Both the position numbers and the translations under genes were made by a program. 64,000 nucleotides of DNA from Winogradskyella schleiferi. GTDB taxonomy: Bacteria > Bacteroidota > Bacteroidia > Flavobacteriales > Flavobacteriaceae. Location of the stretch: NCBI RefSeq assembly GCF_013394655.1, contig NZ_CP053351.1:2200501-2264500 (forward strand), written 5' to 3'. The notes beneath the pieces were generated by a model, which had not been told where the DNA came from, made no database searches, and was given only the letters and a program-made list of their open reading frames with translations. Positions 6,987 through 22,221 of this stretch are shown in pieces. Positions within the stretch are counted from its first letter, which is position 1; the number at the start of each line of letters is the position of its first letter.

Positions 6987-6996
6987 GTTAGCACTT
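6987..6996 (+). repeat. Leading edge of cassette-like unit 1
   Basis: GTTAGCACTT is the exact reverse complement of AAGTGCTAAC at 7569-7578, which lies at the far end of the same unit. This is the relation expected between the R'' and R' core sites of a single attC split across the ends of an integrated cassette. Confidence 0.6.
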
Positions 6997-7011
6997 ATTT
7001 GAGAAAAAAAA

Positions 7012-7587
7012 ATGAAACGATTATTAAAATTCATAGATAAGAATATTTCGGGCAAAAGGGTTTTAGGACTTTTTATTTTGACCAATCTTGTTTACACTTT
7101 TATGCTGACTGTCACCATTCCCAAAACAATGGAATTCTCTAACGGTATGAAATTATTGGATATGATGCCCACAGGATATGATTTGAATTATGTAAGCGAA
7201 TTATTCACTTCGCTTGGAGAAAATGGACGTTTGACGTATCTGACCAATCAAATACCTGTGGATATGATTTACCCACTGCTATTTGGACTTTCTTACTGTC
7301 TGCTCTTGGGTTATTTCTTGAAAAAATTGAACAAATTAAATTCCGCATATAGTTATCTCTGCGTAATACCGATAATTTCTGGAATTGCAGATTATTTGGA
7401 AAATATCGGAATCATCACAATGCTTAAAAACTATCCCGAATTGAAAGAGACTGCAGTGCATACAACTAATATATTTTCAGTTATAAAGAGCATTTCAACA
7501 AGTATATTTTTTATTGCATTGATAGTAGTCTTAATAACACTTGGAATTAAAGTATTAAACAGAAAAAAAAGTGCTAACACCGTATAA
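7012..7587 (+). CDS. Four-helix membrane protein, cargo of cassette-like unit 1
   Basis: A 191-residue integral membrane protein with segments near residues 19-37, 83-101, 112-130 and 155-180 and a Lys-rich N-terminal cytoplasmic stretch. I do not recognise the family. Its last codons and its stop lie inside the flanking repeat: the reading frame runs through AAGTGCTAACACC and uses a TAA within the repeat. This shows the coding sequence and the repeat have been fitted together for some time. The unit has no other gene. Confidence 0.75.
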   Translation: MKRLLKFIDKNISGKRVLGLFILTNLVYTFMLTVTIPKTMEFSNGMKLLDMMPTGYDLNYVSELFTSLGENGRLTYLTNQIPVDMIYPLLFGLSYCLLLGYFLKKLNKLNSAYSYLCVIPIISGIADYLENIGIITMLKNYPELKETAVHTTNIFSVIKSISTSIFFIALIVVLITLGIKVLNRKKSANTV

Positions 7588-7705
7588 AATTAATTGCTTG
7601 TTTTAGCCAATTTACGAAAGTCCTCGATGACTTTCTATCTGTGATTTATTTGTTAAATCAGGTGCTTAAACACGCAACGAATATTATACATAACCGTTAC
7701 CAAAC
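7569..7705 (+). repeat. attC-like palindromic repeat R1
   Basis: Layout: outer box AAGTGCTAAC (7569-7578), spacer ACC, inner box GTATAA, variable centre with hairpin GAAAGTC/GACTTTC (7616-7635), inner box TTATAC (7685-7690), a 6-base spacer, then outer box GTTACCAAAC (7696-7705) that starts the next unit. The inner boxes are exact complements. The unequal spacers (3 and 6 bases) resemble the extrahelical bases of integron attC sites. R2 and R3 share this plan. Confidence 0.65.
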
Positions 7706-7719
7706 ATATAAAGCAAACT

Positions 7720-8547
7720 ATGAAAAATTTAACATTTGTAATTTTATATATTCTTCTTTCAGGAGTTCAAACCACATTTGGACAGAATGAAACAGATATT
7801 ATAGTAGGAAGTAAGTTCGTTATTAAATCTAATATTTTAGATGAAGAAAGAACCTGTTTAATAAGTCTTCCTGATTCATACAATAATTCATCTGAAGTTG
7901 ATAAAAAATATCCAGTTATCATATTATTGGATGGATATACTCATTTTAAAACAGCATCTGGAATAGTACATTTTATGAGTTCTAATAGGAATCGAAACAA
8001 TTTAATGCCTGAAAGTATTATTATAGCCATAGAGAATGTTGACCGAGAACGAGATTTTACAGTTACAAAAATTAAGACCAAACGACCGAATAATATGGGA
8101 GGTGGAAGAAATTTTTTGAATTTCATTGAGAAAGAACTAGTGCCTTATGTTGATAAAAAGTATAAGACAGAGCCGTTTAGAACTCTTGTTGGGCACTCTT
8201 TAGGAGGACTACTTACACTAAATTCCTATATGGATGAAAACAGCGTATTCAATGCTTACATTTCTATAGACCCAAGTATTTGGTGGAATGAGGAGATGAT
8301 GAAAAACAAAGTTGATTCTATTTCCTCAATATCATTAGATAAAAAACTTTATATCGCTACTGCCAATCAAGGAGAGGCTAATTACGAAAGGAATAAACAA
8401 AGACACGACTCTCTCTATACTTTAATAACAAAGAAATCGAATAAACCTCTAAATATCGAAATAGAATATTTTGAAAAAGAAAACCATCGCTCTGTACCAT
8501 TAGTAGCTTTATACGAAGGGTTAAAATATATTAATCAAGAGGAATGA
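7720..8547 (+). CDS. Secreted esterase (esterase D-like), cargo of cassette-like unit 2
   Basis: A 275-residue esterase with a Sec signal peptide (about residues 1-22, cleavage near TFGQ). It shows YPVIILLDG near residue 66, nucleophile elbow GHSLGGL (Ser about 159), IDPSIWWN, and a C-terminal His in KENHRSVP. It is a paralogue of the 5647-6900 protein but lacks the C-terminal TPR region. It probably acts on small esters in the periplasm. The gene fills the unit between the outer boxes at 7696-7705 and 8576-8585, and is likely transcribed from its own or an upstream promoter in the same direction as its neighbours. Confidence 0.87.
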   Translation: MKNLTFVILYILLSGVQTTFGQNETDIIVGSKFVIKSNILDEERTCLISLPDSYNNSSEVDKKYPVIILLDGYTHFKTASGIVHFMSSNRNRNNLMPESIIIAIENVDRERDFTVTKIKTKRPNNMGGGRNFLNFIEKELVPYVDKKYKTEPFRTLVGHSLGGLLTLNSYMDENSVFNAYISIDPSIWWNEEMMKNKVDSISSISLDKKLYIATANQGEANYERNKQRHDSLYTLITKKSNKPLNIEIEYFEKENHRSVPLVALYEGLKYINQEE

Positions 8548-8575
8548 TTTCGAAGCTAGTAATATCAACAAATAC

Positions 8576-8707
8576 GTTTGGCAACACCGTATATAATTTA
8601 TTGCTGGCTTTTTGCCTACTTGCGAAAGTTCTTGCGGACTTTCTTGGTCGGTAATTAGTTGCTTAAAACACGCTACAAACCATATACAATCACGTTGTGT
8701 GCCATTA
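8576..8707 (+). repeat. attC-like palindromic repeat R2
   Basis: Outer box GTTTGGCAAC (8576-8585) complements the leading edge of its own unit, GTTACCAAAC at 7696-7705, at 9 of 10 positions. Then come spacer ACC, inner box GTATAT, a centre with hairpin GAAAGT/ACTTTC (8624-8643), inner box ATATAC (8683-8688), a longer spacer, and GTTGTGTGCCATTA (8694-8707), which starts the next unit. Confidence 0.65.
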
Positions 8708-8776
8708 GGGCAAAACTGTAACAATTAATATTTTAAAGAGTCCGAATTGGTATAAAATAATAAAAATAAATCATCT

Positions 8777-9463
8777 ATGATTGCAAATACAGAACAGAAA
8801 AATTTAATTAAGACCGCTAGAATAACTGGCTTATGGTATTTAATGATGGCTATTACAGGAACTCTAGGGTTTATGGTCTTTCATTCTCAAATATTTGTGT
8901 CTGGTAATCCTGAACAAACGCTAACAAATTTAGTAGAATTAGAATCTACAGCAAGAATTAGGTTGCTATTAGAATTTGGTATAGTAATTTCTCAGGCTCT
9001 TACCGCAGTTTGGTTTTTCAAATTATTTAAAGATAATTATGAATGGGAAGCTTGGACTCTAGGTATATGGGGAATGGTAAATGCTTTAGCTATTATGATA
9101 AGTGCAATTTCAATGGCCTCAGCAATAGGCATTGTAAATTCTGATATAAGTGCTATGGAAAATAAAGTTTTACTAATTCAGGTTTTTCAACATATAATTT
9201 CTAATGCCTGGGGTATTGGTGGTCTTTTCTTTGGACTTTGGCTGTTTCCTATGGGATACATAGTTATCAAATCTAAAAGAATGCCCATCTGGTTGGGAAG
9301 AGTTATTGTTTTAGGTGGTATTGGCTATGTATTAAGTACCTTAATCCACTATGCAGGCATTGATTTTAGCTTCAATGAATATCTTACGCTACCGGCAACC
9401 ATTGGTGAATTTTGGATGATAGGTTATTTACTAATTTTTGGCATAAGACCTAGCTATAAGTAA
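8777..9463 (+). CDS. DUF4386-like membrane protein
   Basis: A 228-residue membrane protein with about six hydrophobic segments and the features I associate with DUF4386: an N-terminal ARITGLWYLMMAITG segment, a middle AWTLGIWGMVNA region and a conserved LFFGLWLFPMGY segment near residue 155. The function of that family is not established. It sits 13 bp upstream of the tryptophanyl-tRNA synthetase-like gene in the same direction, so the two are probably cotranscribed cargo of one unit. The family call comes from memory of sequence patterns. Confidence 0.75.
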   Translation: MIANTEQKNLIKTARITGLWYLMMAITGTLGFMVFHSQIFVSGNPEQTLTNLVELESTARIRLLLEFGIVISQALTAVWFFKLFKDNYEWEAWTLGIWGMVNALAIMISAISMASAIGIVNSDISAMENKVLLIQVFQHIISNAWGIGGLFFGLWLFPMGYIVIKSKRMPIWLGRVIVLGGIGYVLSTLIHYAGIDFSFNEYLTLPATIGEFWMIGYLLIFGIRPSYK

Positions 9464-9476
9464 AATTAAACAAAAA

Positions 9477-10538
9477 ATGTTAAATAAAAGTTTTGAAAAA
9501 GCAAAAGAGCAAAGCAAATTATTAGAAAATGATTTGTATAAGAATCCTCATAAGTATCGCGTATTAACGGGAGATAGACCTACAGGTAATTTGCATCTTG
9601 GACACTATTTTGGCTCAATTATAAACCGATTAAAATTACAAAGCTTAGGAATTGAGACTTATATTTTAATTGCAGATTATCAAGTGTTGACAGATAGAAA
9701 TGTTTTTAATGAAATTTCAAAATTCACCTATGAACTAACTTTGGACTATTTAGCCTGTGGATTAGACCCTGAAAATTATAAAACTCATATTTTTCCACAT
9801 AGTCATATTCCTGAACTAAATCAACTAACTATTCCATTTCTGACATTAGTTTCCAGTTCAGAATTAAACAAAAATCCAACTGTTAAAGAAGAAATTACTG
9901 CTTCAGGACTGAGTAATATTAATGCAGGAATGTATATCTATCCAGTTCACCAAGCTGCTGACATTTTGTTTTGTAAGAGTAATGTGGTCCCTGTTGGAAA
10001 GGATCAATTACCTCATATAGAATTAACTCGGAAAATCGCAAAGCGCTTTAATACCAAATTAAATAAGAATATTTTTACAGAACCAGTTGCACTTTTTACT
10101 GATACCCCTACTATTCTTGGGTTAGACGGTATTCAAAAAATGAGTAAAAGTCGCAACAATTCAATTATGATAAAGTCAACCGCTGATGAAACAGTAAAAC
10201 TAATAAAATCTGCCAAAACTGATTCAAGTCGTTACATATCTTACGACCCCGAAAACAGACCAGAGGTTTCCAACTTACTTAAGTTAGCTTCCTTATGTTC
10301 AGATATAAGTCCAACAGATATAGCTGATAAAATTGGCGACCAAGGTGCAGGAAAACTTAAACAGCTAACAGCAGAAGCTATAAACACATATTTTGAGTCT
10401 ATTCGAAAAAAAAGAATAGAGCTTGAAAAAAATAAAGACTATGTCAGAGATATTTTGCTTAAAGGTATAAGCAAAGCGAGAGAAACCGCTATTGAAACTT
10501 TAAGTGAAGTCACTGAAGCAATGAATATGAAGATATAA
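9477..10538 (+). CDS. trpS: Tryptophanyl-tRNA synthetase, second (auxiliary) type
   Basis: A 353-residue class I synthetase that would charge tRNA-Trp in the cytosol. The HIGH-type motif is HLGH (near residue 40, in GDRPTGNLHLGHYFGS) and KMSKS lies near residues 221-225. The wording VLTGDRPTG, the NPTVKEEI stretch and PVGKDQLPHIE resemble the second TrpRS type known from Deinococcus and from indolmycin-producing Streptomyces, not the GIQPTGN or GIQATGT form of housekeeping enzymes. It is therefore probably an additional enzyme, and drug tolerance is a fair guess. Its stop codon TAA is the first part of the unit end TAATGGCAC (10536-10544), so the gene is tailored to the cassette end. Confidence 0.85.
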   Translation: MLNKSFEKAKEQSKLLENDLYKNPHKYRVLTGDRPTGNLHLGHYFGSIINRLKLQSLGIETYILIADYQVLTDRNVFNEISKFTYELTLDYLACGLDPENYKTHIFPHSHIPELNQLTIPFLTLVSSSELNKNPTVKEEITASGLSNINAGMYIYPVHQAADILFCKSNVVPVGKDQLPHIELTRKIAKRFNTKLNKNIFTEPVALFTDTPTILGLDGIQKMSKSRNNSIMIKSTADETVKLIKSAKTDSSRYISYDPENRPEVSNLLKLASLCSDISPTDIADKIGDQGAGKLKQLTAEAINTYFESIRKKRIELEKNKDYVRDILLKGISKARETAIETLSEVTEAMNMKI

Positions 10539-10544
10539 TGGCAC
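10536..10544 (+). repeat. Trailing edge of cassette-like unit 3, repeat truncated
   Basis: TAATGGCAC is the exact reverse complement of GTGCCATTA at 8699-8707, the leading edge of the same unit. The following bases (TACCCACAATTTAAT) no longer match the rest of the repeat, so the palindrome has been deleted or eroded here. Confidence 0.5.
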
Positions 10545-10579
10545 TACCCACAATTTAATAACAAATAACTTATGAAATT

Positions 10580-11401
10580 TTGATAGTAAAAAAATTAGAG
10601 AATACAACATTTGATATAATCGTTGATTGTTTTTTAAGGTCTTTCGAGAATTACTATGTTAAAGTTCCAACTGACAAAAATTATTATAAAGAGAGATGGA
10701 AAATATCAAAAGTTGATTATGCTCTTTCTTATGGAATGTTTGATGGAGATAAATTAGTTGGATTTATAATTAACGCCATAGATAAACGTAATGGAGAAAA
10801 AATAGCCTTTAATACCGGAACAGGTGTACTTCCAGAATATAGAGGAAGAAGAATAGTTAAATCGATTTACGATTTTGCTATACTAGATTTAAAAATAAAT
10901 GGAGTTACAAAATGTTCATTAGAGGTAATCATTGAAAATACTAAAGCAATAAAATCTTATCAAAGAATTGGATTCGAAATTTGTAAAACATTTAATTGCT
11001 TCAGTGGAGAAATTAAATTAATCTCAAATGCTAAAATTGAGATGAATAAAGTTGACTATAATACTTTTGATTGGGGAAAATTACCTAATCAAAATTTATA
11101 TTCTTGGGATTTTAACTTAGAAGTAATTAAAAACGGAGATTACGATTACTATCAAATTACAAAGGATAATTTTCTTGAGTCTTTTTTTGTTGTAAACCCC
11201 AAAAATGAATATTTAGCACAATTTGAGATTTTAAAAGAAAGTGATGACTGTTGGAATAGATTATTTAAAGGGATAAAAGAAGTATCAAACTCAATAAAAA
11301 TAATAAATGTTGATACAAGATTAAACGAGAAAATAAATTTCATCAATTCAATTGGATTATCGAATACTGTTAATCAATATGAAATGGAAATGAATATATA
11401 A
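10580..11401 (+). CDS. GNAT-family N-acetyltransferase (start uncertain)
   Basis: A 273-residue protein. Residues about 35-130 form a GNAT domain with the acetyl-CoA loop in VLPEYRGRRIVKS near residue 95 and a following VIIENTKAIKSYQRIGF strand-helix typical of motif B. Residues 140-270 form a second, less conserved domain. The frame begins at a TTG at 10580. An ATG at 10572 lies in a different frame and meets a stop after three codons; one extra T in the T-run at 10577-10580 would join it in frame (MKFLIVKK). So either TTG is used or the 5' end carries a one-base shift. No leading edge matching its trailing box was found. The substrate is unknown. Confidence 0.75.
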   Translation: MIVKKLENTTFDIIVDCFLRSFENYYVKVPTDKNYYKERWKISKVDYALSYGMFDGDKLVGFIINAIDKRNGEKIAFNTGTGVLPEYRGRRIVKSIYDFAILDLKINGVTKCSLEVIIENTKAIKSYQRIGFEICKTFNCFSGEIKLISNAKIEMNKVDYNTFDWGKLPNQNLYSWDFNLEVIKNGDYDYYQITKDNFLESFFVVNPKNEYLAQFEILKESDDCWNRLFKGIKEVSNSIKIINVDTRLNEKINFINSIGLSNTVNQYEMEMNI

Positions 11402-11403
11402 AC

Positions 11404-11541
11404 TGTAGCCAACACCCTGCATAATTAATGGCTATTTAGAGGCTACTTACGAAAATCCTCACAGATTTTATATTCAGTTTTTATTTGCTAAATTAAGTGC
11501 TTAAACACGCCACTAATCATACACGAAAACCGTTGCCATTA
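11404..11541 (+). repeat. attC-like palindromic repeat R3
   Basis: Outer box TGTAGCCAAC (11404-11413), spacer ACCC, inner box TGCATAAT, hairpin GAAAATC/GATTTT (11451-11469), inner box ATCATACA (11516-11523, pairs with wobble), an 8-base spacer, and GTTGCCATTA (11532-11541), which starts the next unit. The plan matches R1 and R2, though the outer box at the 5' end has no partner upstream of the acetyltransferase gene. Confidence 0.6.
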
Positions 11542-11583
11542 ATTAAAAACTGCAACAGTTTAATTAATTTATAGTCTTTCAAT

Positions 11584-11647
11584 AAAATTTCAAAAATGAA
11601 TAGAATAAAAACTCTAAAATTTCAAAAATGAATACAATAAAAACTCT
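11584..11647 (+). repeat. 32-bp tandem duplication containing a start codon
   Basis: Bases 11584-11615 recur at 11616-11647 with one change (G or C after AATA). Each copy carries an A-rich leader and an ATG. The first ATG, at 11596, opens a frame of 11 codons that stops inside the second copy; the second, at 11628, opens the long reading frame. The duplication may create a short upstream ORF. Confidence 0.8.
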
Positions 11648-13055
11648 CTTTTTTCTAATATCAATAATCTTTTTCACAAACTGTCAAAACAAAAACAATC
11701 CGACGGTAAAGTATTTGTCTGAAACAACAATAAACCAAATAGACACATTGATGAAAGTGTCATTTGATCGTGGATTATTCAACGGGAATATCCTTATTGC
11801 AAAAGACAATAACATTATATATCAAAATGAATTTGGATATTCAGATGCCTCTAGATCAAAAAAACTTAGTAGAAACTCAATATTTAACATTGGTTCTATA
11901 GCAAAAGAATTCAACGCTGTTGCGATAATGATTTTAAAAGAAAGAGGGTTACTTAATTTGGATGATAAAATCTCAAATTTTGAATTGCAATTACCAGAAT
12001 GGTCAAATACCATTAGAATTAGGCATCTACTTCAATATACTAGTGGACTGCCAAGAATCAACTGGAACAATATTAAAAATGACAACGATATCTATAACGA
12101 ATTAAAAAATATTAAACATCTAAGTTTTAAACCTGGCACAGATTACTTGTACAGTAACAATAATGTTTTTCTACAAAGAAGAATTGTTGAACAAGTATCT
12201 GGAATGAGTTTTAATGATTTCATTAAAAAAAACCTACTTATTCCTGGTGGTATGACAAATACTATTATTGACGCGGATACTCAAAACCCTGAATTAGTAA
12301 CCGCATTTAATAATGCTTTTGTAAATGATAGAGCAATGGATATTGAATTCTCTGGATGGGTAAACCCTACTGCAAATGATATGTATAAATGGATAATCAA
12401 CTTACATTCAGGACAGTTTATATCTGATAAATCGTTAATTACTTTATTTGATTCGCATTCTAAGGAGAGTTCTTCTGCTTTAGGAATTGGTGTCATTGAG
12501 AATGACACTTTGCTAATTCATCAACATCATGGATCATCTTTCAATTATGAATCTTTTATCCATTATAATGTGAAAGAAGATTTATCAATCGTTTTAATGA
12601 CAAATAATAAAAACCGTAAGCTTCGAGAAATAACTGATGCAGTCGAAAATATTTTAAAAGGCAATTCCTTTTCAATACCACAGAAGTCTATTTATTTCGC
12701 AATTAGAGAAAAATGTTATGATAATGCTAATGAGGGAATTCAGTTATATAAAAACTTAAAAAAGCAAAATTTTTCTGAATTTAATTTTTCGGATGAAAAT
12801 GAATTAAATCAACTTGGCTATGATTTGATTAAGAAAGGTCAAATAGAAGAGGCTATTAGCATTTTTACATTACTTATCTCAGAATTCCCAAATTCATCAA
12901 ATGCATTTGATAGTATGGGCGAAAGTTATTTCTTAAATGACCAATTTGAATTATCAAAAATAAGCTATCAAAAATCTTTAGAACTCAATCCTGAAAATAC
13001 AAATGCAGAAGAAATGATAAACAGAATTGAAAAAATAAATGTAAAAACAAACTAA
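11628..13055 (+). CDS. Beta-lactamase-fold serine hydrolase lipoprotein with C-terminal TPR
   Basis: A 475-residue protein. The N-terminus has a lipobox ending in Cys near residue 19 (FFTNC), so it is a lipoprotein. The class C beta-lactamase / DD-peptidase fold follows: active-site SxxK as SIAK near residues 90-93, YSN near residue 176, and an HHG motif near residue 302 where KTG is usual. Residues from about 390 hold TPR repeats (LGYDLIKKGQIEEAI, SMGESYFLNDQFEL). Enzymes of this group include beta-lactamases, D-aminopeptidases and esterases, and the activity is not certain. Its stop TAA (13053-13055) is part of the cassette trailing edge TAATGGCAAC. It is the last unit of the array. Confidence 0.87.
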   Translation: MNTIKTLFFLISIIFFTNCQNKNNPTVKYLSETTINQIDTLMKVSFDRGLFNGNILIAKDNNIIYQNEFGYSDASRSKKLSRNSIFNIGSIAKEFNAVAIMILKERGLLNLDDKISNFELQLPEWSNTIRIRHLLQYTSGLPRINWNNIKNDNDIYNELKNIKHLSFKPGTDYLYSNNNVFLQRRIVEQVSGMSFNDFIKKNLLIPGGMTNTIIDADTQNPELVTAFNNAFVNDRAMDIEFSGWVNPTANDMYKWIINLHSGQFISDKSLITLFDSHSKESSSALGIGVIENDTLLIHQHHGSSFNYESFIHYNVKEDLSIVLMTNNKNRKLREITDAVENILKGNSFSIPQKSIYFAIREKCYDNANEGIQLYKNLKKQNFSEFNFSDENELNQLGYDLIKKGQIEEAISIFTLLISEFPNSSNAFDSMGESYFLNDQFELSKISYQKSLELNPENTNAEEMINRIEKINVKTN

Positions 13056-13062
13056 TGGCAAC
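13053..13062 (+). repeat. Trailing edge of cassette-like unit 4, right end of the array
   Basis: TAATGGCAAC is the exact reverse complement of GTTGCCATTA at 11532-11541, the leading edge of the same unit. No palindromic repeat follows, so the array ends here with a truncated site. Confidence 0.6.
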
Positions 13063-13221
13063 AAAGATGGATATAAAAAAAAGAGTAATCCTCTGCTGAG
13101 ACTATAATGATGAGAGACAATATTTAAGTCATAAATTCTCTTGTCTTCAATTAGTATTTTTTTTGCAATTAATCCAAGCCTTAAATATTTCATAGCTTAA
13201 ATTCTTAAAATTAATAACAAA

Positions 13222-20008: not shown

Positions 20009-21406
20009 ATGAAAACAATAACAATTACCATACTTTTAATTTTACTCGCCATTACTACTGCACGTTCTCAAGATATTTCAGGACATTGGAACGGAACAAC
20101 CAAAAGAGGCGATAAAGAAATCACCTTTGTTTTTAATATAAAACCAGAAAACGCTACGTATTCAACTTCTATGGATATTCCCACGTTTAGAATTGCTGGA
20201 ATCAAACCATCAGCTACAACTTTTACAAATGGAAAGCTAATTATTGATGGCTCTAATGTTGGAATGAACTATACAGGAGTTTTTAATACTGAAGCACAAC
20301 AATTTGAAGGCACTTACAAGGAAGGTGGCATAGAAATGGTCCTAAACTTAAAAAAAGGAACTATAAAAATAGAAGACTCTAGACGGCCGCAGGAACCTGT
20401 AAAACCCTACCCTTATTATGAAGAAGAAGTCGTTTTTAAAAATAATGAAGCGAACATATCATTAGCAGGTACTTTAACCTTACCCCATAAAAACGGAAAA
20501 TTTCCAGTAGTTATTTTAATCAGTGGAAGTGGTCCACAAGACAGAGATGAAAGTTTTATGGGACACAAACCGTTTTTAGTGTTGTCAGATTATTTAACAA
20601 GACAAGGCATTGGTGTATTGCGTTTTGATGATCGTGGAGTTGGAGAATCTACAGGAAATTTTGGTAACGCAACCACGGAAGATTTTTCTAAAGACGTTTT
20701 AAGTGCCATCGCATACTTAAAAACTAGAAACGATGTAGATTTTAAAAATATAGGTTTGATGGGTCATAGTGAAGGTGGTATTATCGCTCCTTTAGCGGCT
20801 AATAACTCTAAAGATGTTGCTTTTATGGTGTTATTAGCTTCTACCGGAATTTCGGGAACAGAACTATCTGTAATGCAATCTAAAACATTGAGAGAATTTC
20901 CTGTCAAAGATGAGTTGGCTTATGAAAAAAACACCAGAAAAGCGATTGCAATTGTAACCTCTAATAAGGGCAAAACAGAAATTCAAAAAGAATTAACTAA
21001 ACATTATAATGATTTTTTAAGACCCATTTTAACATCATTAAACGTACCAGAAAAGAATATCAATGCATTTATAGAAAGCCAACTTAAAACAAGTTTACAA
21101 CCTTGGTCACGCTATTTTTTACAATACAACCCTGCTGATGAAATTGAAAAATTACAAATCCCAGTGTTGTCATTAAATGGCAGTAAAGACACGCAAGTAA
21201 ATGCAAAAATTAATCAAGAAGCTATAAGGCAAGCACTAATCAAAGGCAAGAATAAAGATTATAAAATAGTAGAATTGGAAAACTTAAACCACTTCTTTCA
21301 GGAGTGTGAAACTGGAAAGATGGATGAATATAGAAAAATAGAACAAACATTTTCCCCAACAGCATTGAACGAAATAAAAAAATGGGTAAGAGAACATCTG
21401 AAATAA
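20009..21406 (+). CDS. Secreted alpha/beta hydrolase with N-terminal beta domain
   Basis: A 465-residue protein with a signal peptide (about residues 1-20, cleavage near ARSQ). Residues 20-125 form a beta-rich domain (SGHWNGTTKRGD, a DUF3887-like or lipocalin-like fold). The hydrolase domain begins near residue 150 with SGSGPQDRDE; the nucleophile elbow GHSEGG lies near residue 253, the acid in LNGSKDTQV and the His in LNHFFQEC near residue 432. The triad is complete. Proteins of this type act on esters or peptides in the periplasm. A degenerate attC-like repeat follows the stop codon. Confidence 0.85.
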   Translation: MKTITITILLILLAITTARSQDISGHWNGTTKRGDKEITFVFNIKPENATYSTSMDIPTFRIAGIKPSATTFTNGKLIIDGSNVGMNYTGVFNTEAQQFEGTYKEGGIEMVLNLKKGTIKIEDSRRPQEPVKPYPYYEEEVVFKNNEANISLAGTLTLPHKNGKFPVVILISGSGPQDRDESFMGHKPFLVLSDYLTRQGIGVLRFDDRGVGESTGNFGNATTEDFSKDVLSAIAYLKTRNDVDFKNIGLMGHSEGGIIAPLAANNSKDVAFMVLLASTGISGTELSVMQSKTLREFPVKDELAYEKNTRKAIAIVTSNKGKTEIQKELTKHYNDFLRPILTSLNVPEKNINAFIESQLKTSLQPWSRYFLQYNPADEIEKLQIPVLSLNGSKDTQVNAKINQEAIRQALIKGKNKDYKIVELENLNHFFQECETGKMDEYRKIEQTFSPTALNEIKKWVREHLK

Positions 21407-21420
21407 GATATAAAATACTT

Positions 21421-21500
21421 GTAGTAATCTCGTGAATAATTCATTACTAGTACTCACCTACTCATGAAAATCCTCACGAATTTTCAGACTAGATTATATA
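21421..21500 (+). repeat. Degenerate attC-like repeat R4
   Basis: The stretch CGTGAATAATTCATTACTAG followed by CTACTCATGAAAATCCTCAC keeps the order of elements seen in R1-R3: a CGT(G)(A/T)ATAATT-like box, a TTGCT-like box, CTACT, and the hairpin GAAAAT/ATTTTC (21466-21485). The outer boxes are no longer recognisable. It lies between the hydrolase at 20009-21406 and the LytTR gene. Confidence 0.45.
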
Positions 21501-21519
21501 TTGATATGGCAATAGCAAT

Positions 21520-22221
21520 TTATTTCAATAACTGATTAATATTTGTTTTATATAGTTTACCAACAGGTACAACATGATCGCCAATATAAATTCTATTACC
21601 TTCTACTCTAGCGATGTGCTTTTTTGCAACGGCAAATGATTTATGAACTTGTATGAAATCATTATCAGAAAGCAATTGGATGGTATCCGAAATCTTTTCA
21701 CGAATGCTTATCGTATTAGTACTCGTAACAACTTTGGTATAATTACCTGAGGCTTCGACAAATAGAATATCATCTAAATCTACCTGAATATGGCTATTAT
21801 TTTGCTTTAAAAAAATATGTTGTCCTTCAGGCTTTATAGTCTCTTTACTTTCTTTTCTTATTCCACTAGTATTAGAAGAGGTTACTTTATTAATGGCTCT
21901 TAAAAAGCGTTCAAAACCAAACGGTTTTAACAAGTAGTCTACAACGTTTAATTCGTAGCCTTCAATGGCAAATTCACTATAGGCAGTCGTTACAATAACT
22001 TTTGGTGGAGATGATAAGGTTTTTAAAAATTGAAATCCTTTTAATTTGGGCATGTTCAAATCTAAAAAAATGAGATCTATCTCATGTTTGCTTAAGTAGT
22101 CAATAGCTTCTATAGCATCATAACAATTGGCTTTGAATTCTAAATTTGGTAACATATCACAATAGCCTTTTATAATATCGTGTGCAATATGTTCGTCGTC
22201 TATAATGATATATGTCATCAT
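21520..22221 (-). CDS. LytTR-family response regulator
   Basis: A 233-residue response regulator. The receiver domain has acidic YIIIDDE at the N-terminus, the phospho-acceptor Asp near residue 55 in LIFLDLNMPK, TTAYSEFA, and Lys in YLLKPFGFERF. Residues about 130-232 form the LytTR domain (VEASGNYTKVV, FIQVHKSFAVAKKHI). It overlaps the kinase gene upstream by 4 bp. It is transcribed away from the ABC transporter operon, whose promoter region holds spaced direct repeats of the kind LytTR proteins bind; control of that operon is inferred. Confidence 0.92.
   Translation of the reverse strand: MMTYIIIDDEHIAHDIIKGYCDMLPNLEFKANCYDAIEAIDYLSKHEIDLIFLDLNMPKLKGFQFLKTLSSPPKVIVTTAYSEFAIEGYELNVVDYLLKPFGFERFLRAINKVTSSNTSGIRKESKETIKPEGQHIFLKQNNSHIQVDLDDILFVEASGNYTKVVTSTNTISIREKISDTIQLLSDNDFIQVHKSFAVAKKHIARVEGNRIYIGDHVVPVGKLYKTNINQLLK

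Follow-up and report, generated by a model that had tools for sequence, protein, structure and literature searches.

In passages of two integron surveys (PMC9668308, PMC2426708), the integrase is defined by means of an IntI-specific domain, so that a platform of the flavobacterial type described below would be missed. The joint origin of the I2 region and of the extrahelical bases of the recombination sites is termed a chicken-egg paradox in the part of PMC4792948 that deals with it, where CTXphi, which is not a complete system, is named as the nearest reaction: like the flavobacterial system, CTXphi/XerCD combines a folded single-strand site without extrahelical bases with an enzyme without I2, but CTXphi has neither an integrase of its own nor cassettes. 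With the IntI integrons, the flavobacterial system shares cassette arrays in one orientation, an attI-like junction beside the integrase, the crossover point G|TT and a hairpin with R and L stems, an asymmetric spacer, a variable top and a better fold of the bottom strand. In contrast to them, its integrase lacks the IntI insertion and mostly points in the same direction as the cassettes, its sites lack extrahelical bases, its outer stem extends over about 14 positions, one of them a constant mismatch, and its right box consists of GTTR followed by free sequence instead of GTTRRRY. CALINs, finally, are defined as clusters in which two or more attC sites lie within less than 4 kb of each other and no integrase is close by.

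The locus considered here lies in a window of 64,000 nucleotides (the whole stretch of DNA that was analysed) from the chromosome of Winogradskyella schleiferi. It resembles a CALIN in that three sites, R1 to R3, follow each other at distances below 4 kb between 7569 and 11541 with no integrase nearby, and it differs from one in that its likely platform is of a XerA-like, non-IntI kind. On sequence grounds, it is very probably an integrase-less cassette cluster, in agreement with the original prediction, and would be served by a platform elsewhere on the chromosome that works on the folded bottom strand; the system as a whole is read as an integron-like platform without the IntI insertion and without extrahelical bases.

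R1 (7569-7705), R2 (8576-8707) and R3 (11404-11541) are indeed related repeats, R1 and R3 sharing 72% identity across 117 nt. A covariance model that was built with all three included scores them at 118.8, 103.0 and 113.1 bits, respectively (E of 4.1e-17 or better), and an nhmmer model made from sites picked by regular expression likewise ranks them top (93.4, 87.9 and 82.6 bits). The next-best covariance-model match in the window, with 28.8 bits (E 0.0022), is a solitary degenerate site on the + strand at 21433-21522, outside the array, which follows the gene at 20009-21406. In the own genome the strict pattern recovers R1 and R2 only, and an Rfam search at the gathering cut-off returned RNase P only.

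The genes predicted at 7012, 7720, 8777, 9477, 10580 and 11628 are all found on the + strand, as are all other features of the array. If a cassette is taken as the span between two successive G|TT points, the left array end would be the first R' box, GTTAGCACTT (6987-6996), with the crossover at 6987/6988. Cassette 1 (6988-7696) encodes a 191-aa protein (7012-7587) without a Pfam match, membrane-like by eye, and ends within R1 (R'' 7569-7578, core 7576-7696, R' from 7696); cassette 2 (7697-8694) carries a putative esterase (PF00756) at 7720-8547 and R2 (R'' 8576-8585, core 8583-8694, R' from 8694). Cassettes 3 and 4 form one unit (8695-10553) and comprise a DUF4386 gene (8777-9463) and an extra TrpRS gene (9477-10538). 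Units of one or two genes had been predicted, and the two-gene unit is there, but it arose through the loss of a site that relatives have kept: a Maribacter locus (L086) and the congener G441 retain about 137 bp between the two genes, and in G441 this stretch scores as a site with 35 bits. A probable scar, CTACCCACAA (10544-10553), may represent the R'' box of the TrpRS cassette, the remainder of the site having been lost; it complements, except at position 8, the R' box GTTGTGGGTAA preceding TrpRS in G441 and L086, and is not present at the corresponding place in either of them. Cassette 5 (10554-11532), for which no R' box of its own was found, codes for a GNAT acetyltransferase (10580-11401) and ends within R3 (R'' 11404-11413, core 11411-11532, R' from 11532), and cassette 6 (11533-13062) codes for a beta-lactamase-fold protein with TPRs (11628-13055) and ends in the R'' box TAATGGCAAC (13053-13062). 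In the alignment, the sequence shared with G441 restarts at the CAAC of this last box, the array end being at 13059-13066. The predicted repeat remnants at both ends are real, as GTTAGCACTT matches the left box of R1 and TAATGGCAAC the right box of R3 at 7/7 positions each; together with 6/7 between the right box of R1 and the left box of R2 (and 3/7 between R2 and R3), three of the four box pairs match (P = 0.0004, given a chance rate of 4.7%).

With respect to movement, Maribacter and Tamlana also contain window cassettes, with a DNA identity of 95-98%, compared to 73-77% for the housekeeping trpS, the contrast being smaller in the congener G441 (96% vs 86%), and the homology stops at the repeat boxes. 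The gene and site of cassette 1 recur in another genome (G108, locus L040) with 92.2% identity from 7008, next to a different right neighbour and a different left box; cassette 2 recurs in the Maribacter locus L086, where identity begins at CCG|TT; and cassette 5 is also found in Tamlana (L058), where the sequence after the left box differs. A crossover point G|TT with complementary cassette ends, as in integrons, is observed, a few breakpoints lying at the left AAC instead. Of 20 relatives, three contain the gene flanking the cluster downstream, and in the congener the same locus carries different cargo, contradicting the random palindromes with unchanging cargo that had been named as grounds for abandoning the prediction. 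Two of the three relatives with the flanking gene, L356 and L357, were rejected as clean empty sites: they have no site nearby, but their upstream flank is unmatched.

Across loci, the right variable box of a repeat matches the left box of the next repeat at 6-7 of 7 positions in 104/144 consecutive pairs (65/105 after dropping repeated boxes; 5 of 7 or fewer in the other 40), compared to 4/144 for the box of its own repeat and a random rate of 4.7%, and a single strand is used in all 61 loci that have at least two sites. The repeats are real markers of a cassette array, with ends paired as in integron cassettes; of the box plan originally proposed, the repeats hold up, while the outer boxes pair with those of the neighbouring repeat and not with each other. 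Single-strand folding had also been suggested, and with the repeats folded as they stand it is clearly seen in R1 (z -3.95 and -3.62) but not in R2 and R3 (R3 bottom strand -1.97, the other three folds -0.81 to 0.07). Since the two halves of a repeat belong to different cassettes, the cassette-circular forms were folded, and here the bottom strand is more stable than the top strand in 60/60 sampled sites (mean z -4.8). The inner stem, to which the TTGC/GCAA pairs missed by RNAalifold had been added by hand, is 92.8% paired and shows covariation of 0.387 vs 0.113 when shuffled. Of 42 sites, 38 have L-stem arms of equal length (12/12 nt) and hence lack the extrahelical bases of the attC L arm; the right arm has 13 nt in three others and 11 nt in one. 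Among 152 sites, selected from 188 for box pairing, the right box reads GTTR in all and has C or T at the second variable position in 86, which does not follow the R' consensus GTTRRRY of IntI integrons; outer position 8 is C.A in 126 and G.A in 23, the latter therefore having no wobble.

Contrary to the prediction of a genome without a visible integrase, one is present. A platform 1.07 Mb from the window comprises a recombinase gene at genome positions 3288073-3289200, an attI-like junction and 16 or more repeats. The pairing rule holds there for 11 of 14 consecutive pairs (a fifteenth is omitted, as one site has no visible right box), and the sequence of the junction, GTTGTACATA (9243), fits that of the left box near 11901, TATGTACAAC. 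This array also holds several defence systems. None of the 11 recombinase matches in the own genome lies within the window. Forty integrase loci have a site in the same orientation within 4.5 kb, and all but three of them (L179, L194 and L289) contain an R' box fitting the first site (shuffled control 2/61); in 21 of these 37 the box is no farther than 150 bp from the integrase stop. In a stricter attI-type test 18/19 fit (control 1.1%). Judged by sequence, an attI-like site stands beside the integrase, as in integrons. Sites downstream of the long-form recombinases have the same orientation in 95/95 of those listed (up to four per locus), and a recognised site lies within 5 kb of 23 of the 50 long forms that have 5 kb downstream. 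Within 1.6 kb, sites are found downstream of 19/67 but upstream of 3/80; 35 of 82 long forms have no listed site on either side, many of them at contig ends.

The array-linked recombinase is a XerA-like tyrosine recombinase that is extended at its N-terminus by about 100 residues and, judged by the following comparisons, is not IntI, contrary to the IntI type originally envisaged. The 38-residue IntI insertion region holds 37-38 residues in 22/22 IntI and 0-1 in 82/82 long forms, all seven enzymes scanned fall below the TIGR02249 (IntI) cut-off of 265 with 190.8-202.5 bits, no match in the own genome reaches this cut-off, and the IntI sequences form one clade (SH-aLRT 100). Against NF040815 (XerA, cut-off 220) the seven enzymes score 242.2, 230.8, 215.4, 214.1, 211.6, 203.4 and 196.2, five being below the cut-off, and they differ from XerA recombinases (NF040815; PDB 5hxy, 4a8e) in the N-terminal extra part and in adjoining cassette arrays.

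In a model search of the family, as had been suggested, sites are present in 128 of 149 Flavobacteriaceae genomes, one per genus (E 0.001, with at most the best 23 sites scored per genome), compared to 37/149 by the strict pattern. Integrase relatives occur in 102/149 (E 1e-40, short forms included), namely in 96/128 genomes with and 6/21 without sites (p = 6e-5, short forms counted and genome size ignored).

In the proposed platform, the tyrosine recombinase gene precedes the attI-like junction, behind which a long array of cassettes extends. Owing to the complementary cassette ends, the site of a free circle would fold into an R stem, an asymmetric spacer of 3 x 6 nt, an L stem (12 nt per arm) and a top that varies, and the recombinase would insert and excise cassettes via this folded bottom strand, the choice of strand possibly being aided by positions that are A.C in the top and G.T in the bottom strand and would replace the extrahelical bases. 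The window cluster would then either need the integrase to act in trans or have become a fossil.

That the repeats are REP-type dispersed palindromes adjoining genes by chance would fit their being intergenic hairpins with a solitary degenerate copy at 21433-21522, but this reading is contradicted by the pairing rule (104/144 with the next repeat, 4/144 with the own), by the single orientation in 61/61 loci and by genes travelling with their repeats, and is hardly credible. A dead remnant, whose cargo differences arose by ordinary homologous recombination, is a possibility of some weight, though well short of even odds, and is compatible with the proposed system: sites were lost or shortened near 9463, 10544 and 13053, and the window contains no recombinase match. 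However, the identity with Maribacter sets in at CCG|TT, and the site that precedes it is of a different type, which leaves little homology for recombination, and the pairing of cassette ends would go unexplained.

The sites might also be genuine attC sites that a true IntI of other bacteria or the housekeeping XerC/XerD moves, in which case the XerA-like recombinase beside them would be incidental. IntI exceeds the cut-off in 84/296 Bacteroidota genomes and, as read from two lists, in 16 of the 28 genomes outside the family that have sites (model, E 1e-4), and in G212 the IntI gene and such a site (L358, 62 bits by nhmmer) are about 1 kb apart, so that IntI may use these sites there; in addition, Polaribacter phage P12002L carries sites of the window's family, and according to a passage of PMC9892861, which does not state which site, IntI1 uses the bottom strand of a P12002L attC and gave no top-strand recombinants. 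On the other hand, none of the 85 genomes with an IntI match belongs to the window's family, 20 loci around true IntI genes contain no site of the window type (best 9.7 bits), and the XerA-like gene adjoins the attI-like junction with downstream sites sharing its orientation, making this explanation improbable. The preference for a platform with its own XerA-like enzyme is nevertheless tempered because genomes outside the family hold both sites and IntI.

Slightly better than evenly balanced is the further proposal that the Flavobacteriaceae harbour a separate integron lineage without I2 or extrahelical bases, which would recombine attC sites in folded single-stranded form, would select the strand by A.C/G.T positions and might be either a survivor from before I2 or an independent invention. 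As a candidate that brings along an integrase, an attI-like junction and arrays of its own, the system makes the paradox testable in culture, and it may bear on the origin of gene-capturing integrons. In the titles and abstract beginnings of the open PMC literature, no flavobacterial integrons with an I2-less integrase were found. Finally, a scan of genome contigs gave at least 118 stretches, some of them chance matches in other phyla, and a scan of viral contigs gave 38.

The repeats R1 (7569-7705), R2 (8576-8707) and R3 (11404-11541) of the original prediction are found at these coordinates as the top three matches of the window, and the genes at 7012, 7720, 8777, 9477, 10580 and 11628, taken to share one direction, indeed all lie on the + strand. 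In this order they code for a protein without Pfam match, an esterase, a DUF4386 protein, a TrpRS, a GNAT protein and a beta-lactamase-fold protein. The array is limited by GTTAGCACTT, the first right box, and TAATGGCAAC, the last left box (span 6987-13062), each of which pairs with the nearest repeat. The cassette TrpRS gene (9477-10538) is a second copy, 34% identical to the other one at G000:C1:4250867-4251811, and such a spare TrpRS could confer tolerance of a TrpRS inhibitor. A tandem duplication of 32 bp (97% alike) at 11583-11646 overlaps the beginning of the 11628 gene.

By comparing 159 loci with 268 well-delimited sites, most of the loci being found by a strict pattern and the window and eight recombinase loci being among them, it is evident that the bases which follow the GTT of a repeat's right end complement those preceding AAC in the next repeat. 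At least 6 of 7 positions agree with this rule in 104 of 144 consecutive pairs (some loci overlap) and in 65 of 105 distinct box pairs, boxes of the same repeat pairing in only 4 of 144 (random expectation 4.7%), and one strand carries all sites in 61/61 loci with two or more sites. Since the boxes are complementary to those of the next repeat, the unit extends from G|TT to the next G|TT and has complementary ends, which makes it an integron-type cassette. Homologous cassettes were compared in 20 rows, of which 19 are distinct because one locus occurs twice. Mean identity is 0.94 in the first 10 bases past the left G|TT, and at the right end it falls from 0.80 in the last 10 bases before G|TT to 0.61, 0.40 and 0.26-0.39 beyond. 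Outside the left boundary it is 0.7-0.8 for 30 bases and then about 0.4-0.6, persisting there because the sites resemble one another. In one clear pair, loci L024 and L126, the break is at the left AAC (gene end 0.98, left box the same, site body 0.63).

Cassettes 2-4 of the window are found again in Maribacter sedimenticola (95.4 and 96.7% identity), cassettes 2-5 in Tamlana sedimentorum (97.7%, with a contig end at 7954) and cassette 1 in genome G108 (92.2% from 7008). As these values are far above those of the housekeeping gene trpS (73%, 77% and 74%, respectively), the shared cassettes were transferred. The identity with Maribacter starts at CCG|TT, the site upstream being unrelated; cassette 1 in G108 has a different right neighbour and also a different left box, and cassette 5 in Tamlana has an identical left box followed by different sequence. 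The congener G441 (trpS 86%) shares this locus, including cassettes 1-4 at 94.9 and 96.0%, and retains the site between DUF4386 and TrpRS which the window has lost; other genes replace cassettes 5-6, the common flank starting again at the last box's AAC. Truncated or exchanged sites (window 10544-10553 and 13053-13062, and the Tamlana locus) retain the left box as far as AA(C) but differ thereafter, as if the left box were also cut. Homology breakpoints record history and not which enzyme acted.

Of 188 sites, 152 were picked for their box pairing, and 60 drawn from these were circularised for folding. In all 60 the bottom strand gives the better fold (mean z -4.8 versus shuffles), and in 58/60 the circular form folds better than the integrated form. 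The inner stem covaries, the L-stem arms are 12/12 nt without extrahelical base in 38/42 sites, and the spacer has 3 nt on the left in 42/42 and 6 nt on the right in 39/42. Unpaired top-strand L-stem positions are mostly A.C (41/41, 38/42 and 18/42, 22 being paired at the last), as is outer position 8 (A.C in 126/152 sites, G.A in 23), and no top-strand G.T occurs at these four A.C-rich positions of the sites examined. On the bottom strand, a top-strand A.C becomes a G.T wobble. Whereas extrahelical bases choose the strand in classic sites, according to PMC2727003, the sites described here lack them, and the A.C positions may help in this choice instead. In classic sites without extrahelical bases, top-strand recombination moves to the left box (PMC2727003), which the left-AAC breakpoints fit.

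Contrary to the original prediction of a genome without visible integrase, a recombinase gene is present at 3288073-3289197. The closest named integrase is 88% identical to its product and points to Winogradskyella as the probable host genus. The attI-like junction of this gene lies 42 bp past the stop (locus L187), and its box fits TATGTACAAC, the left box near position 11901 of L187, where a first cassette, which carries a restriction-modification pair, ends. The array of this platform lies wholly on the + strand. In it nhmmer gives 16 matches scoring 18 bits or more. The model, applied to two fetched stretches with E values up to 1, gives 22 different matches (23 rows, as the stretches share one site), and at least one further site lies beyond them. 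Its defence genes (L187 9454-11795 and L307 1572-10948) code for HpaII-type R-M, an OLD-like ATPase (AAA_15), a TIR-Mrr protein and SIR2-HerA. Among the matches in 15 genomes rich in sites, none reached the IntI cut-off, but a recombinase adjoined arrays.

From 100 fetched loci, 98 recombinase rows were obtained, including 82 long forms (at least 345 aa), i.e., XerA-like candidate integrases with an extra N-terminal part. With at most four sites listed per locus, all 95 that lie downstream have the orientation of the long-form gene, and sites within 1.6 kb are found downstream in 19/67 but upstream in only 3/80. A recognised site follows in 23 of the 50 long forms with 5 kb of downstream sequence, and for 35/82 no site is listed upstream or downstream. 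In 37/40 loci there is a right box that fits the first site, in 21 of them within 150 bp of the stop (control 2/61), and in 18/19 for first sites with exact AACAC. Among 149 genomes, an integrase is found in 96/128 with sites versus 6/21 without (p = 6e-5, genome size uncontrolled; one genome absent from both lists is counted as lacking both). Loci L197, L272, L276 and L287 form a separate clade of long integrases with sites on the gene's other side, pointing away, which is the layout of classic integrons. Sites of a different type, whose inner boxes resemble CGGCTATAG/CCATAGCC, occur in arrays of the same kind in L117, L181, L277 and L279; they are poorly detected by the site models, and other site types are undercounted because these models were built from the R1-R3 family's own sites.

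For Bacteroidetes proper, PMC9024848 reports one complete integron, in Salinibacter ruber M1; IntI exceeds the cut-off in 84/296 Bacteroidota genomes outside the family of the window, more than this single integron would suggest, and occurs in 16 of the 28 such genomes with R1-R3-type sites. The I2 insertion is incompletely conserved in an integron-like subgroup described in PMC8138268. In the Polaribacter phage P12002L, attC sites have been reported, and for one of them IntI1 yielded recombinants from the bottom strand but none from the top strand (PMC9892861). This phage (locus L416; 14505-14624 and 39123-39242) carries several sites of the R1-R3 family, some very short, close to methyltransferase genes, although the attC assayed need not be one of these. 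R1-R3-type sites also occur on plasmids of Tenacibaculum, Persicobacter and Flagellimonas (H42-H46) and in the Tenacibaculum phage JQ (H41), which are possible vehicles of the sites.
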